Positions 28,741-57,901 of a stretch of DNA of 64,000 nt are shown piece after piece; within the stretch, counting starts at the first letter, position 1, and each line of letters opens with the position of its first letter. This stretch comes from Morchella semilibera (Eukaryota > Ascomycota > Pezizomycetes > Pezizales > Morchellaceae). The stretch is taken from positions 1,932,370 to 1,996,369 of the forward strand of contig WBVU01000008.1 in assembly GCA_009192285.1 (NCBI GenBank). The letters are read 5' to 3'. A program made the position numbers and the translations under genes. Under the pieces are notes generated by a model that made no database searches, was not told the DNA's origin, and saw nothing but the letters and a program-made list of their open reading frames with translations.

Positions 28741-29047
28741 AAGACAACATATTTCTCCTAGCTATAGATACACGTCTCCTGGGTTTCGGTAAGATTAATT
28801 GGTCTTCGGTGTAAACCCCGGTTATCGACACGCGGGGATGTGATATGGTCGGAGATCGGGGCAATAGGGTACGAAGGGTTCTGTGTGCAACCCACCAGAA
28901 ACCAGGCCTAAGCCCTAATGCAGATCTCCCGCAGTGAATTAGGTTTCTTGCATGTGATCTACATATGGTCTTAGGGCTGTTGGCATTTTTAGCTGCATAT
29001 TACTTTCTTCCCCCAAACAGGCGCCTCTGGAGGTATGTATTAATAGG
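28741..29047. other. 5' flank of the lactate dehydrogenase gene
   Basis: No gene and no obvious TATA box. This is the likely promoter region for the minus-strand gene. Confidence 0.4.
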
Positions 29048-29156
29048 GACTTTGCGCGAATGGAGCAAGCTCTATATTTCTTATCTGATTGGCAGGCTAT
29101 TGATCGGCATCAATCGGGTTACCGGAAAATAGAGCTGGCTCCATTTGCGCAAAGTC
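29048..29156. repeat. 109-bp inverted-repeat element
   Basis: The arms at 29048-29075 and 29129-29156 are 28-bp inverted copies with two mismatches, beginning GACTTTGCGC and ending GAGCTCTAT-like. The 53-bp loop is non-coding. It looks like a compact MITE or foldback sequence. Confidence 0.55.
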
Positions 29157-29158
29157 GT

Positions 29159-29424
29159 GAAAACGCCAAGTTTTTAATGACTTCTCAATACAGTACAATC
29201 TCGCTATAAGGATATCTGCATCCAAAAATATCCTCATAGGCCATTTATCCTTATAAGAAGTGCCTAGTTCACCCAAAGCAATCCCTATTGGGACTCAAGA
29301 TATATCCTTATAGGCTGAATATCCTTATAAACAATATCCTTATAACGAGATTGTACTGTAGTGATAGATTAGTATACAAGAATGTTGTGGTCGTCTTGCA
29401 AGTTATTAAAGACTTGGCGTTTTT
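29159..29424. repeat. outer inverted repeat enclosing a MITE
   Basis: AAAACGCCAAG.TTTAAT blocks at 29159-29181 and 29403-29424 are inverted copies. Removing the 168-bp pogo-like MITE inside leaves a roughly 100-bp foldback element, so this appears to be an older element invaded by a younger one. Confidence 0.5.
29191..29358. mobile_element. 168-bp pogo/Tigger-type MITE
   Basis: The ends are CAGTACAATCTCGCTATAAG on the left and its inverse, with one mismatch, on the right. TA duplications at 29189-29190 and 29359-29360 flank it. Multiple TATCCTTATA repeats fill the interior. The TIR shares the CTCGCTATAAGG core with the element at 6957-7655. No transposase is encoded, so it would need one in trans. 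Confidence 0.75.
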
Positions 29425-50314: not shown

Positions 50315-51896
50315 TAGGATGGGCAAGGGTTCTCTCGACCCGGGATGTGAGAATACGCCTATTTGAAAGAGAAAAGATCATTCAGCGAGGGATATCTTAG
50401 GATCGGAACTTGGACACGAACTCACCAAGTGAAAAGTAGGGCATCTGTGAGCCTTCAAGATTACCATTAGGACAAGCACCGCCAAACGGAATTTTCCTAC
50501 TCTTTTTCATTGGTAGATTTCCGACTTTCTATCTATGTGGCTACTTGGAGAGACAAATTTTATGTGTACCTTATTCTTGACCTATGATCTCTTCCCTAGG
50601 ACTTAACCCAACATCGGGTTTACGTTTGCGAGTGATTTCGTATGAGCAAATGACCAGGATGTGCTGAAATAAATATCACACCTACAAGCTAGTACGACCT
50701 AGTATGAATTCAAAAGACCCACGCTGTGTGTAATGGCTATGTATAGAGTTGGGTAGGTTCGCAATATGGCATCCCACACATGTCACCTGTATGTTTCTTA
50801 TCCGACTTTGTCCGAAAGGGATGTGAGGCTGACCCCGTAGAAGAGAGAACTACAAACAAACCGCGACAGATGCCCTCAATCGCGGTCATTAAGTTGATTC
50901 CAACTATTAACTGAAGTTCGGAGCCAACGCGAGGAGGAATTCATCAAGTTTCTCACTAATTTTAACACCAGATAAAGTTTTTTATGCCTTGTATCGGCTA
51001 AGCTCTGCGGTCTGCCGCGCCTAGCACGAAGTGTAAGTATACGGTGGGAGGTTTGGTGTAAATACTTTCTCTATTCAAGAGGACGATCATAGCACTACAT
51101 GTAGTAAGTAAATGTGGTTTTTTTGTGGGGGTAGCTAATGACATTAACTCGGAGTTAGTAAGATATTAAATTTGTAGTCTAAGAGATACCGGCCCTGATA
51201 TTTTGGCAGTAACACTAGAATATTCACCTGACAAAATATCAAAATAGCTGGGTTTTGACATCCTCATAATAATTGGAGCGGATTGACCCTCGTGTCAGTA
51301 GAACCCGCTCTCGTCTCCGGAGAAAGTGCGTATACAAGAACGAGCCGGGCCTTTATTAACGGGGTTATAGTTCGATTATAAGATCCTTTCGGATAATTCT
51401 TATTTTCACGTACTATTACGTCGTGGAGTAGCGTGACGGCCCGTTAGATCTCGTAAGCTTTATGAAGAACTCGATGAGATTTCCGGGTATAGGATCTGTT
51501 TCTTTCCCCCAGGGCTCAGCGGGGTGCGGTCGGGCCATCGTTCGGGTTTTGTTGGTTCAGGGTGTTGAGGGGAAATACATGAACAGGTATTAGGAGGATG
51601 AGATTTTCTTTATCTTGGGAGTTTGTGGGAGAATACCCGGGGGAGGACACATTTCAAAGGAAATGGAGTTTGGCTCCCGATAAACACACGAGAGAAACCG
51701 TTGCTGAAAATTTGGATAGTTCAATTTGGCCAAATGAGTAGGGCCCTTTGGCTAGAATTGATTTCTTGGCACAGGGTTAAAAGCCTAACAGGTAGGTGTT
51801 GTGTAGCCCGTAGCTACATACTTAGGTTGGATGAAATTGATCGATCGATTGATGGCAAACCCTCACCTCTCCATACTGGAGGCAGGGCAAATACAA
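50315..51896. other. intergenic DNA
   Basis: No gene supported. TACATGTA lies at 51096 within the longer perfect palindrome ACTACATGTAGT. Confidence 0.5.
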
Positions 51897-51988
51897 TGTA
51901 CTTTGGGTGTAGGGGTAAGTGAGAAGACACCACTCTACCATGGCTGCGTGAAGGGTGTCTTCTCACTTACCCCTACACCCGAAGTACA
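51897..51988. repeat. 92-bp near-perfect hairpin
   Basis: 35-bp arms (51897-51931 and 51954-51988) are inverted copies with one mismatch around a 22-base loop. The arm core is GTGTAGGGGTAAGTGAGAAG. Such a structure would form a dsRNA-like stem if transcribed. Confidence 0.65.
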
Positions 51989-52798
51989 TGGAAGATGTAT
52001 ACATGTGGATTTATTGCCCTGGAATTTACAGTATGGAATATGACTATGTACGTAATCTAGTGACGAATACCGAACTAAACAGGAAGAGTACTGTACTATA
52101 CCGTATTCTCACTGTAGTAATCCCACCCCTCTTTTTGGTAATAGTTGAGCGGATATATGCATTAAAACCTCTGATTATAATATGTATATATTAATACATG
52201 TAGTACATTACCAGCTGACAATTATATTGCTCTACCGATTTTGTGGGGTCAAACTTGAAAATTACTCTGAATCGGCACAGGTTGTGGGGCCTGGCTGTGA
52301 GTGTTGTACTTCGTTGGTTTATATTCTGATTCAGTTAAGCAAGCTGCTTTCAGTACCCTTAGTAAACATAATTGTGAGGTGCTGTGGATGTGTCGAGAAT
52401 AACTTTGTTATACACAGCATTCCCGTCCTGTCATGTCCTAAATGTTTGTTTCCTAAGGCTGCGTCGGTTCAGGGCCGGGCCTTGCTAAGCGCAGTGTATC
52501 TAAAGACTTCTAAAGTACGCCGGCCTCTCGTGGTCCCGCGGCGCTTAAACCAAGAACCAGACGGGGCTTTTTATCTTGAAACATAACAGTTACACGACAT
52601 GGCCCGGCCGGTTATTGTGTTACCGCCTGAGTCAGCCCCGCGATTACAATCGCATTATGATATTGGGTTCTGGAGAGGCTGTTCTGTAGTACAGTGCATT
52701 TCCCCTCATGCCAGATACCTTCCAACAACGCGTACGTCCTCCGTGTGTACTATCTCCTGGACTCTGCTTCCTCGTTAGCCTTATCTAATTATATTAAA
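51989..52798. other. upstream region of the kinase-ankyrin gene
   Basis: The open frame 52182-52586 (+), 134 codons and Cys/Leu-rich, has no recognised domain or splice link and is not called. TACATGTA is at 52195. The kinase frame is open upstream to an ATG at 52694, but ATG 52799 is preferred because its TTAAAATGAG context is better and the intervening residues do not resemble the family. Confidence 0.45.
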
Positions 52799-55196
52799 AT
52801 GAGCCAAGACACAACACACTTCCTTGATGCCACGATCCCTTACAAGGTTAAAACAGTATTTCGGGAGGATGGCGTGGAGCATATCGGTATTGGAGAGGAT
52901 GTGGTGAAGGGCAATTCGCGCCCTGGGGTGGATGGTATTCTTGGACGATGGATAGATATTCGACGTATCGGCCAAGGAGGATTTGGCGCCGTTTTTCTAC
53001 AAAAGGAGGCAGTTTCTGGGAGTGAGAGGGCTGTAAAGAGGATTCTTCGGGATAGAACGACAGAACAGAGTTTTTCACGCGAGCTTCTTTCGATGATAAA
53101 AGTTAGGGATGTAAGTTGCTGAACCAGAAAACATTATATTAATAGGTGTATTTTGTAGCTTCCTGCAGCTGAAGCTAACGAAAAATTCAAACGCTAGTTC
53201 GAACACATTGTGAGGCTTTTCGCCTGGTATGAGAGTCCGGATTTTTACTTCATTGCTATGGAGTATGCCAAATACGGAGACTTGGACCAGTATCTTAAAA
53301 ACTCGGAACCGAGGCTAGAGTTAGGGATTGCGGAGGAAATCATTCATCAAATTATCAAAGGGCTTGTTGTACTTCATAATAAGGATATATGCCACCGGGA
53401 TTTGAAGCCACAGGTCTGTAATTAACTTTCAAAGTAACGATTAGTCCAGGGCTGTGTGCTAACAAATATATATACAGAATGTCCTTATTACCTCATTGAA
53501 ACCCATTTGCGTCAAACTTGGCGATTTTGGTGTATCCAAGGCTTTTGAAGGCACCGAGCTCAGAACCATGATAGGGACACAGGGTTATCTAGCTCCTGAG
53601 ATCCTTGGGACCCTTCCCCCAAAATTCCGTTCAAGGGGATCAAACTCATACACTAAAGCAGTCGATATATGGGCTCTGGGTTGTCTTGTCCATAAGATCC
53701 TCACCCGAGAAGCCCCATTCCTTTCCACGGAAATTCTTGGGGAAGATTCGGCCATGTCCGTATCCGGGATCCATGAATATTCCACAAGGCAAACTGATAT
53801 TAACCTCATTTACCAATTCTGTCACGGCAAAGCAGATATTCTTACTAGTTCTTTGCAGAGGCTTGGGCTGGGCGAGATGGATATTAGGTTCATAAAAAGG
53901 CTATTAGTCGTTGATCCTAGGGTTAGAATTTCTGCCGCAGCTGCTCTTGAAGATATGTGGTTTCTTCCATATATTACCAACCTCAGTGAAGTGGGTAAAT
54001 TTTTGATTGAAGCAGCAAAAAATGGTGATTTGAGCCTTCTTTCCCGCTTATTGACAAGTGGAGCGAGCCCCCAGGCGGAAGACAATAACAAAGACACCCC
54101 AATGCATTTTGCTGCTTTGAATGGCCATAAAGACGTTGTGCAGCTTTTGCTAGAAAATGGCGCAGACTTGAGCGGGGCGAACAAGGACGGAAACACACCA
54201 ATACATCTCGCCGCTCGGTTTGGCCGTAAAGACGTTGTGCAGTTTTTGCTAGAAAAGGGCGCAGACTTGGGCGGGGCGGACCAGAACAGGGATACACCAA
54301 TACATCTCGCCGCTCGGGCTGGCCATAGAGACGTTGTGCAGCTCTTACTAGAAAAGGGCGCAGACTTGGGCGGGGCGAACAAGGACGGAGACACACCAAT
54401 ACATCTCGCCGCTCGGTTTGGCCGTAAAGACGTTGTGCAGTTTTTGCTAGAAAAGGGCGCAGACTTGAGCGGGGCGAACAAGGACGGAAACACATCAATA
54501 CATATCGCTGCCTGGGAAGGCCATAAAGACGTTGTGCAGTTTTTGCTAGAAAAGGGCGCAGACTTGAGCGGGGCGAACAAGGACGGAAACACATCAATAC
54601 ATCTCGCTGCCTGGCAAGGCCATAAAGACGTTGTGCAGATTTTGCTAGAAAAGAGCGCAGACTTGATCGGGGCGAACAAGGACGGAAACAAATCAATACA
54701 TCTCGCTGCCTGGGAAGGCCATAAAGACGTTGTGCAGATTTTGCTAGAAAAGGGCGCAGACTTGATCGGGGCGAACCAGAACGGAAGCACACCAATACAT
54801 CTCGCTGCCTGGCAAGGCCATAAAGACGTTGTGCAGTTTTTGCTAGAAAAGGGCGCAGACTTGAGCGGGGCGAACAAGGACGGAAACACATCAATACATC
54901 TCGCTGCCTGGGAAGGCCATAAAGATGTTGTGCAGTTTTTGCTAGAAAATGGCGCAGACTTGAGCGGGGCGAACAAGGACGGAAACACATCAGTACATCT
55001 CGCTGCCTGGAAAGGCCATAAAGACGTTGTGCAGTTTTTGCTAGAAAAGGGCGCAGACCTGAGCGGGGCGAACCAGAACGGAAGCACACCAATACATCTC
55101 GCTGCCTGGCAAGGCCATAAAGACATTGTGCAGTTTTTGCTACAAAACGGTGCAGGCCCAGGGGGCGACGAAAATCTGTTGAAAATGGCAGAGTAA
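52799..55196 (+). CDS. protein kinase-ankyrin repeat fusion
   Basis: Exons 52799-53110, 53198-53413 and 53478-55196 join in phase 0 to give 748 residues. The kinase domain (about 50-340) has IGQGGFGAVF (57-66), the VAIK-type Lys in AVK (80), CHRDLKPQN (catalytic Asp about 172), DFG (192-194) and GTQGYLAPE, so it looks catalytically competent as a Ser/Thr kinase. A degenerate capping repeat (FLIEAAKNGDLSLL) begins about 348. Then 11 ankyrin repeats of exactly 33 residues run to about 735. Repeats are near-identical (NKDGNTSIHLAAW.GHKDVV, then Q.LLEKGADLSGA). Changes are concentrated at a few positions, for example the E/Q/K after AAW. Ankyrin arrays bind proteins; here they may select the kinase's target or sense a ligand. 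No transmembrane segment or signal peptide, so probably cytosolic. The pathway is unknown. Confidence 0.9.
54086..55170 (+). repeat. 11 x 99-bp tandem coding repeat (ankyrin)
   Basis: The 99-bp period encodes one ankyrin repeat per unit. Copies from about 54180 onward differ by only a few bases each. Even synonymous positions are conserved, for example CATAAAGACGTTGTGCAG recurs almost unchanged, pointing to recent duplication or gene conversion rather than protein-level constraint alone. Confidence 0.9.
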
Positions 55197-56210
55197 AAGG
55201 GAAACGGCTTTAGCTAATACTACACCACACTATACGGCTCCGGTACGTACTACATGTACCTGTTTATTTCCTAAGCACTCATTTCGCTTTATTGATCTAT
55301 GTAGCTTTTATTTATCAAATTGTATGCCAGTCATCCATAAAATCCCAGAACGCACAGTCGATTCGGAGATCTTACAAGAGTGACCGTTTAGCAATTTGCA
55401 AAATAGTTCTAACTTCCCTCTTATGTAGTAGCTACATGGATAAATTTTAAGACCCCATATAAGTAGGCACATACTTGTAGCTTTTCATTTTGACAAACGT
55501 ATGCTAGCGCCGCGCACCCCATTGGGCCGGCCAATGATTTTTCCTGCATGAAACAAGCTTGAGGCTGCTTTTCTTGGCGCTACCCCAAGTATACAACCCG
55601 ACGCCGTTCCCCGTCCGCCGCCCGCCCTCCCGCCCCGTCTACTGCCCTAGCTTGAGTTATTGGTAGGGCCACCTTAACCGATCGATCCTATACCTCTAGA
55701 TCTGTCAACGGACTACACTGACCTGGCATGCGCCATCTACACATAGCTACAGCTATAGCTAGGACCCGATACCGACCCACGCGCCCAGCCCCTCGACCAT
55801 CTTGAACGTCACCACGCCCTCCGGGAGCACCCCGGTCACAGCCGGAAGGTCGCGTCTGCTCTAACTGCACGAGTCATGGGGTATGACTCGGTCAGCCCGG
55901 GGAAGGTGCGGTAATCACATTGTGGTAGCGGGGGTGGCCATGTCGGACAAATGTGCCCAGGACTGGTTAGATGTCTGGGTTGTGTCTGTTATTGATGGGA
56001 AGATTAGAGGGTACTGCTTTTTTTGTAGGAGTGGTCGGGTCAATGTTCTTCGTGTATCAAAATATACAATATCCAACTTTTGTAGTCCCTGTCGTATAGT
56101 GATGCGGCATAAGCACATTATATCTAAATTTACTACAGAGGATTTCAATTTCAATCTGTTCTTTTTACAAAAGGAGATTCATTCCAATAGCCATATATGA
56201 ACCCCGACCC
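55197..56210. other. convergent intergenic region
   Basis: Between the kinase-ankyrin gene (+) and the P450 (-). The open frame 55883-56200 (+) has no known domain. TACATGTA is at 55251. Confidence 0.5.
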
Positions 56211-57901
56211 CTACTTCATCTTTACCCTCAACCCCTCCCTCGGCACCATGCTAAGGGTGACCTTATACCTCTCCTCCCCCACCTCCCCCACCCCCTCCAT
56301 CTCCCCAAACGCTTGCAGCACCCTCACAAGCACATACCCCACCTGCGTCAGCGCCATCTGCATCCCCAAACACACCCTCGGCCCGCCATTAAACGGAAGC
56401 CACGCCCACACCGCCTTCAACGCCGCCGCCGCCGCCTCCTCCTCCCACCTCTCGGGCCTAAACGCCCCCGCATCGGGCCCATAGATGTCCTCGCGCCTAT
56501 GGAGCGCAAACACCGAATAGAAGATTCTCTCGCCCTTCCGCACAACAATGGGCGCCTCCCCATCTGCGCCGCCGCCGTGCGGCAGCGTCGTTGTGCGCAG
56601 GGCGCTGCGTGAGTTGATTCCGACGGGGGGGTACATGCGGAGCACCTCGTGCAGGAAGTGGCGGAGGTATACCATCCTGCGGAGGTCCGCCTGTGTTGGG
56701 GGGCGGGTGCCAATGGTTTCTAGAATCTCCTTGCGGAGCTTCTGCTGTACCGTGGGGTGGCGGGAGAGGGCGTGGAAGGCCCATGTCATAGATGATGCAG
56801 TGGTGTCACGGCCAGCTATTATGACGCTGAGGAGCTGGTCCTGGAGAACCTGTGGGTCCTGGGTCTGGTGGGAGAGGGCGTCGAGGAAGATGTATTTCCC
56901 GGAAGTGGAGGACTCTTTGGTGTAGGGTCTGTCCCCTCCGCCGCCGCTGTTGCTGTGCTTCTGGAGGGCAAGGGTGACATAGTGGCCAACGAGTTTGTGG
57001 ACAGTCTTTTTAGCGAGGACGAAGCGTTTGGGGTTCACGATCCAGTAGAGCTCGTGCAGTATGGAGCGGGTAGAGATCACATCTTGCGATATGTCGAAGG
57101 CCTCCGAGAACGACATTTCGCCTTCAACAGACGCCTTCCCTTCCTGTGCGCCGATGGGCGAGCCAAAGAGGAAGTCTGTAGCCGCGTCCATTGTCAGCTC
57201 GAGAAGCAGTGCCTGCAGATCAACCTCACGGTACCCATCGCTACCCGCGGTGGCGTTGATTTTTTCAATCATGCGGGTGACGAATATCTCTAGAGCGCTG
57301 AGGTCGGCGACGCTTGCCCGGTCGAAGGAGGGCCTCAGGAGGGCGCGGGAGGCCTTCCAGTCGGCGCCGTCTTGGGTGAAGATCCCCTGGGTGCCGAGAA
57401 GAGCATTGAGGGCACGACGCCCGTGGGCTAGGCCGAAATCTAGGGGGGTTCCATTGTATATAAGCTTCCATTATCTTATGGGCCACTCATAAAGTGGCTT
57501 ACCATCGAATTGTAGGGCGAGCATGGCCTGTATGTTGCGGTGATCGCGCGTCACGATGGAGCGCACGCCAAACACATTAGTACCGAAGGTGTGCCCGTGC
57601 TCATTGAGGAGGTCGGTGAGGAAGAGAGGAAGCCGGCCGGCGAATTTGGCCTTGATGGCGTGGATTATATCGTAGATACCGAGGATATAGGGGTCTTTTC
57701 GGAGGCGGAGGGGCTCGCAGGCCCGGCCTTTAAAGGAGGTTGGGACGGGCTGTTTTGGGCTTGTTAGATGGTTTATTGGAGGTTTACGTGGATGAGTGTA
57801 TATTTGTAACGGTTTATGGATAAACTTACCTCTTGTTTTTTCGACAGAACATGGAGAAATACTAGCGTAGCCAGAGCAACTCCTACCCAGATGAAAGCCA
57901 T
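56211..57901 (-). CDS. cytochrome P450, CYP52-like
   Basis: Heme monooxygenase of the microsomal class; CYP52-type relatives hydroxylate alkanes or fatty acids, so a lipid substrate is a reasonable guess. Exons are 57901-57830, 57749-57503 and 57439-56211, giving 515 residues with no lesion. The N-terminal membrane anchor is WVGVALATLVFLHVL. Then FGTNVFGVRSIVTRD and LQFDDFGLAHGRRAL, followed by QGIFTQDGADWKASRALLRP, match the N-terminal block of this clan. The I-helix oxygen-binding motif AGRDTTAS is at about 315-322. The ExxR motif (EVLR) is at 371-374, with FRPERW after it. The heme loop FNGGPRVCLG is at 456-465, with the Cys ligand at 463. The C-terminal sheet region is GC-rich. It converges with the kinase-ankyrin gene, and no redox partner is nearby. 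A TATATATA run abuts the start codon. Confidence 0.93.

Follow-up and report, generated by a model that had tools for sequence, protein, structure and literature searches.

The kinase-ankyrin locus

The window, the whole 64,000-nucleotide stretch of Morchella semilibera DNA analysed here, corresponds to C22:1932370-1996369 of a 56.76 Mb assembly in 23 contigs. Its plus strand carries, at positions 52799-55196, an intact three-exon kinase-ankyrin gene whose spliced model encodes a product of 748 aa. The ATG at 52799 and the stop codon that ends at 55196 agree with the limits given in the first-pass annotation, which had not mentioned the two introns. Both introns are predicted; their splice sites were read by eye and the joined exons were translated to a single open frame. 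Exon 1 (52799-53110) encodes a short N-terminal extension and the start of the kinase N-lobe, including the glycine loop GQGGFG and the lysine motif AVK. Intron 1 (53111-53197) runs from GTAAGT through CTAAC to TAG, and its flanking exons are open under the splice. Exon 2 (53198-53413) encodes the middle of the kinase and ends with HRDLKPQ, which intron 2 (53414-53477, GT...AG) separates from NVL. Exon 3 (53478-55196) encodes the kinase C-lobe with DFG and APE, a linker, the ankyrin array, a short tail and the stop codon.

The protein kinase domain (Pfam PF00069) spans residues 54-338, encoded by 52958-53963 with the introns inside this span, and the Ser/Thr kinase model scores 184.3 bits (E 3.6e-54, cut-off 31.7). 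The ankyrin array, defined by Pfam, TRF and translation, comprises 11 tandem 33-residue repeats at residues 378-740 (54081-55169), and Pfam Ank (PF00023) marks 11 stretches in the model. The gene had been described as a complete kinase fused to ankyrin repeats that lacks a NACHT or NB-ARC domain, and both parts of this description hold, as neither domain is listed in the Pfam scan of the full 748 aa at E 0.001. The signatures of an active kinase are all present (GQGGFG, AVK, HRDLKPQN, GDFG and APE), and judging from these motifs the protein is probably catalytically active. The top solved chain for the window kinase is Rad53 (E 3.5e-32, 115 bits), the yeast counterpart of CHK2. Calcium-dependent kinases follow it, and the best 60 of 2732 matched solved chains further include calmodulin-domain kinases, STK17A, CDK2/3 and CHK2, and no RIPK is found among these 60. 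On the minus strand, long open frames at 53822-55213 and 53983-55209 (463 and 408 aa) extend over the array and are probably a by-product of its repeat composition.

A MITE-like foldback element with 36-nt arms that are 97% complementary lies 0.8 kb upstream and outside the gene (51896-51989), and has dozens of genomic matches across many contigs. Short dispersed elements with many genomic matches are also seen at about 29041-29156 and 29188-29360 of the window, the first matching on both strands. On the minus strand at 56211-57470 is a cytochrome P450-like frame, recognised by eye from FNGGPRVCLG, which is single-copy apart from a weak 67% match. A NACHT-ankyrin pair is located about 32 kb past the kinase-ankyrin gene on C22, as judged by coordinates.

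Several contigs of the assembly form near-identical pairs, namely C21/C22 and C12/C13, for which 3-kb samples are 98.6-100% identical; C9/C10 are judged to be paired from the parallel coordinates of their hits only. The hits on C21 and C22 run parallel to about 1.53 Mb, with one pair of fetched stretches identical over 3094 bp (L017/L018) and another at 98.6% (L014/L015). The window nevertheless has no match in 110 kb of C21 at the collinear place, and no full second copy of the array, the kinase part or the neighbouring P450-like gene is present in the genome. The partnerless part of C22 around the window is a rearranged or hemizygous region, or else an effect of assembly. Across the genome there are two HET-domain hits and 22 NACHT rows, 18 of them above the cut-off, and some of these rows are duplicates between paired contigs.

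A uniform array with a few variable positions

TRF reports the array as 10.7 copies of a 99-bp period with a 90% match and a score of 1613, the top score among the window's 18 rows and thus far beyond chance. All 11 units are exactly 33 residues (99 bp) long. Averaged over all pairs of the 11 repeats, 74% of residues (range 55-94%) and 86% of nucleotides are identical. Mean protein identity rises to 80% within repeats 2-10 and to 84% within repeats 4-10, and the most deviant units are 1, 3 and 11. Repeats 2 and 4 differ at 2 of 99 nucleotides and repeats 5-10 differ mutually at 3-8 of 99. The term "near-identical" applied in the first-pass annotation therefore suits the core (repeats 4-10), not the 11 repeats as a whole. 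The same annotation misleads where it extends this near-identity to synonymous sites: with a pS of 0.155 and a pN of 0.130 over the 11 repeats, such sites have no special conservation in the array.

Neighbouring repeats are the more similar ones, with mean differences of 10.3 at distance 1, 20.0 at distance 9 and 29 at distance 10. Repeats 2-11 contain 13 two-state columns, and a four-gamete test on these finds all four combinations in 25 of 78 column pairs. This mixing of columns, taken together with the effect of distance, is in line with rounds of unequal exchange or conversion at short range and suggests reshuffling among the repeats of the array, to which recurrent mutation could also have contributed in part. 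At the DNA level the window array has no match elsewhere in the genome and no interlocus exchange was detected. The lag-33 identity of the array is 0.85 over its best 132 residues in the sense frame. This value lies at the border of what the available text of PMC4986451, with a method of its own, counts as highly conserved repeats of fungal NLRs (identity above 85% across 100 aa or more), and the all-pair identities of 84% for repeats 4-10 and 74% for all 11 fall below that figure.

Variation within the unit is concentrated. Position 14, which follows AAW, is the most variable (2.41 bits, six residue types among the 11 units), followed by positions 5, 31, 22, 13 and 2. Position 22, before LL, alternates between F, I and L (1.31 bits), and positions 2-3 alternate between NKDG and NQNG, while A11, A12 and G15 are invariant over the 11 units. 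The three variable places noted earlier (14, 22 and 2-3) are thus confirmed; positions 5, 7, 13 and 31, absent from that account, vary too.

In designed ankyrin proteins the target-binding positions are, by the numbering assumed here, 2, 3, 5, 13, 14, 26 and 33, and position 22 would be a framework place. The assumed binding positions carry 8.56 of the 19.34 bits of variation in the array (permutation p 0.0006, 11 units), and the enrichment persists without units 1 and 11 (p 0.007, repeats 2-10). Positions 7, 22 and 31 are variable though they lie outside this set. The idea that the variable sites occupy the binding face is supported for the set as a whole and not for position 22, where F, I and L are conservative hydrophobic exchanges at a framework place. 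Designed ankyrin proteins bind through their concave side, a location that the accessible part of PMC8229355 gives in general terms, without position numbers.

A nonsynonymous excess, which the first-pass annotation proposed to look for at the variable positions, is not seen across the unit. The pN/pS ratio is 0.84 for all 11 repeats, 0.87 for repeats 2-10 and 1.33 for repeats 4-10, and minimal changes among repeats 2-10 amount to 23 nonsynonymous and 6 synonymous (p 0.51). Positive selection in the array is not demonstrated, and the enrichment at exposed places is compatible with selection for binding diversity and also with relaxed constraint.

A pN/pS near 1 without an excess is also what speaks for a rival view, in which the gene encodes a scaffolded signalling kinase of an ordinary kind, like the filamentous-fungus kinases termed Ffk; in this view the similarity of the repeats would stem from recent slippage and the surface residues would vary because they are unconstrained, with no recognition involved. 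The small differences among repeats 5-10 (3-8 of 99 nucleotides) mark that part of the array as young, and deletion of the ankyrin Ffk genes has no phenotype listed in the available text of PMC3591445. Set against this explanation are the six residue types at position 14 beside a fixed A11, A12 and G15, the enrichment of the binding set (p 0.0006), and the mixed columns, which suggest more than a single simple expansion. It is a realistic alternative, though less likely than not.

A family of kinase-ankyrin genes

When the window kinase is used as a protein query against the genome it returns 131 matches, including the three exons of the window gene itself. Sixteen of the matching loci were fetched (L040-L055), eight of them picked for adjoining ankyrin hits. 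Ankyrin repeats lie on the same strand and 3' of the kinase in 15 of the 16, that is in all eight chosen for them and in seven of the eight others, and 11 of these 15 have at least one repeat that shares the kinase exon's open frame. In the other four (L046, L048, L049 and L050) the repeats are in another frame or past a stop. Among 20 further loci down the kinase list, for which about 1.1 kb of downstream sequence was inspected, two have ankyrin repeats (L056 and L069), and two more kinase and ankyrin hit pairs are indicated by coordinates (C1:3979 kb and C11:1021 kb). The genome therefore holds at least 20 kinase-ankyrin genes including that of the window, 18 by sequence and two by coordinates. 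This tally is a lower bound from which L066, with its single weak ankyrin hit on the opposite strand, was left out. One more kinase match, L029, reads by eye as an ordinary MAPKKK-type kinase and is without ankyrin hits.

A frame break right after HRDLKP, as at intron 2 of the window gene, is found in 13 of the 16 fetched paralogs, the exceptions being L047, L049 and L050, and HRD and DFG are kept in all 16. The kinase tails are strongly diverged, the window kinase reaching a top identity of 38% to any row of the kinase tree, and the tree itself is little resolved, with one of its 17 inner branches starred and 11 open. The family of which the window gene is a member is old and diverged, and many of its kinases have ankyrin arrays. 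The view of the gene as an unusual receptor layout is not sustained given at least 20 such genes in the same genome, published kinase-ankyrin proteins of fungi and animals, and published PKinase domains of NLRs. The family, rather than the single gene, is the broader point of interest, and what may be novel is its size, found alongside just two HET-domain hits in the genome.

Some members of the kinase family show other domain combinations. Two of them (L055 at 670-1881 and L062 at 2-598) have a downstream SH3 domain in place of ankyrin repeats. L077 (C21:146200-148900) appears by eye to contain two same-family kinase domains in one gene. The first is pseudokinase-like, with HRN and GGFG replacing HRD and DFG, and runs in a single open frame into the N-lobe of the second. 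On this open frame Pfam recovers only the first kinase, and L077 is possibly a tandem kinase.

The closest relative of the window kinase, and the sole one at the DNA level, is at C14:1228750-1231150 (L076 and L066), with 70% identity over about 320 bp. Its kinase is broken across frames and the next 1.1 kb contains no same-strand ankyrin repeats. This broken relative, and the four paralogs with repeats outside the open frame of the kinase, would be in keeping with the window gene being a paralog in decay that still reads open by mere chance; against this stand three open exons, canonical splice sites and intact kinase signature motifs, which make decay barely credible.

A further explanation is that the kinase half is an integrated decoy that mimics a checkpoint kinase targeted by intruders, and that the array holds or senses it. 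Rad53 is the best solved match of the kinase, and CHK2-like kinases are part of nine T-NACHT NLRs in Sordariales, for which a decoy role is proposed in the available text of PMC12258605. The window protein, however, lacks a NACHT or NB-ARC domain according to Pfam, its kinase is N-terminal and from a large family that retains HRD and DFG in all 16 paralogs L040-L055, and the similarity to Rad53 amounts to just 115 bits. A decoy function is thus very unlikely.

The uniformity of the arrays was compared in sense frames, with lag identity computed from the best 132 residues of each locus, for 17 kinase-ankyrin paralogs and for loci found by ankyrin search alone. Among the paralogs L040 reaches 0.77 and L043 0.71, and the remaining 15 of 17 do not exceed 0.51. 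L050, in which TRF detects a 209-bp unit (2.7 copies, 90%), is missed by the protein measure. Of the arrays found by ankyrin search alone, those in four of seven loci are as uniform as the window array (L001 0.83, L002 0.84, L003 0.87 and L005 0.88). Each of these four consists of some 10 to 25 nearly uniform units, 99 bp long except in L005, where the unit is 198 bp; L006-L008 give 0.20-0.23, and L004 overlaps L002. No kinase and no NACHT domain is found by Pfam in the 3-kb stretch of L003. Homogenised repeats do not go hand in hand with a kinase, and equally uniform arrays at L001, L002, L003 and L005 are a further point for the ordinary signalling kinase. The unit consensus varies from gene to gene, with 33 residues in the window array and 35 in L040 and L043, so the arrays were probably homogenised separately, gene by gene. 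The bias of variation towards binding positions was tested in three other 33-residue arrays; it is present in L002 (17 units used, p 0.015) and in L003 (23 units, p 0.002) and is not seen in L001 (6 units, p 0.15).

Overall, the preferred reading, which has a probability of about one half, is that the window gene encodes a soluble Ser/Thr kinase with an ankyrin arm that binds a partner and whose surface is varied through repeat exchange. The C-terminal ankyrin solenoid would form the target- or ligand-binding arm of the kinase. Unequal exchange or conversion of a local kind would copy and reshuffle its repeats within this one gene, a process that may hold the framework uniform and recombine a few surface residues at the end of helix 1 and the tip of the beta-hairpin. 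Binding of the partner would in turn regulate or direct the kinase. Counted against the reading are the overall pN/pS of 0.84 with no nonsynonymous excess, the lack of the binding-position bias in L001, the variation at positions 7, 22 and 31 outside the assumed binding set, the diverged repeats of most kinase-ankyrin paralogs (15 of 17) and the failure to find DNA-level exchange with other arrays, as well as the viable FfkA-C deletions, for which the available part of PMC3591445 lists no phenotype.

If the kinase does have a varied binding arm, the partner itself may vary. By analogy with the repeat arms of fungal NLRs it would most plausibly be a cue of nonself or of interaction. A nonself role is attractive because of the two HET hits, the 22 NACHT rows and the use that NLRs make of ankyrin arms, and given the varied arm its chance would fall slightly short of even. 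More broadly, the kinase-ankyrin genes, at least 20 in number, could constitute a recognition repertoire parallel to the NLRs, in which a kinase head replaces the NACHT-controlled effector and the ankyrin arrays, some of them reshuffling, serve as the variable arm. This wider proposal is speculative and rather unlikely; were it true, the members with SH3 or second-kinase-like domains would represent further outputs of this repertoire. Allorecognition is poorly explained in fungi with few HET genes. In Pyronema confluens any incompatibility is thought unlikely to use the proteins of Sordariomycetes (PMC3778014, in its available text), and in Morchella importuna homologues were found for only some of the known het genes (PMC8940278, likewise in part). 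Should its arrays vary between strains, the kinase-ankyrin family would be a concrete and testable candidate for allorecognition, and with no such variation the window gene would be an ordinary lineage-expanded fungal kinase.

Comparison with known systems

The titles and abstract openings surveyed contain no report of kinase-ankyrin genes with homogenised arrays and no expansion this large. Fungal kinase-ankyrin genes go unmentioned in the available text of PMC2838846 (where "ank" and "ankyrin" occur 0 times) and of PMC6001611 ("ankyrin" 0 times), in the outline and abstract of PMC3937382, and in the accessible part of PMC9815663.

The repeat arms of fungal NLRs offer a parallel to the array. 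According to the available text of PMC4986451, these proteins are characterised by ankyrin, TPR and WD repeats of high conservation and hold 60-70% of all such repeats in dikarya; 30-40% thus belong to other proteins, as is the case for the window gene. The same text describes reshuffling and repeat-number polymorphism of the ankyrin repeats of Podospora NLRs, assigns their positively selected sites, one excepted, to the inner helices and hairpin of the concave face, and tabulates PKinase among the N-terminal domains of fungal NLRs. NLRs of the Podospora Pa_3_8560 type resemble the window gene in their uniform 33-34-residue ankyrin repeats and in variation at the inner helix and hairpin; unlike them, the window gene has no nucleotide-binding domain and its kinase directly precedes the array. 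The T-NACHT fusions of Sordariales likewise place a CHK2-like kinase within a repeat-bearing receptor protein, but in them it forms the C-terminal portion of an NLR with three parts, whereas the window protein has no NLR core. In Tuber melanosporum a NACHT-ankyrin family is said to be expanded (PMC3689799, available text) and the HET count is two (PMC3778014, available text); its agreement with the count here carries no weight as evidence.

The animal proteins RIPK4 and ANKK1 combine an N-terminal kinase with about 10 C-terminal ankyrin repeats, human RIPK4 being 784 aa long (PMC9573974, as far as its available text extends). They match the window gene in the order of kinase and array and in similar length; no RIPK is among the best 60 of the 2732 solved chains matched by the window kinase. 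Their common layout is probably convergent.

Fungal counterparts in layout are FfkA, FfkB and FfkC of A. nidulans, ankyrin-repeat kinases specific to filamentous fungi, and related kinases of other filamentous fungi that likewise carry ankyrin repeats. Their distribution across species is patchy and no yeast orthologue is listed in the available text of PMC3591445, from which these descriptions are taken. Like the window gene they join a kinase and ankyrin repeats in one protein, a likeness of layout. They differ from it in that homogenisation of their repeats is unreported in that text and in number, since A. nidulans has three members with ankyrin repeats and the present genome at least 20 such genes. 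The kinase-ankyrin layout is thus already known in part, from filamentous fungi and from animals.
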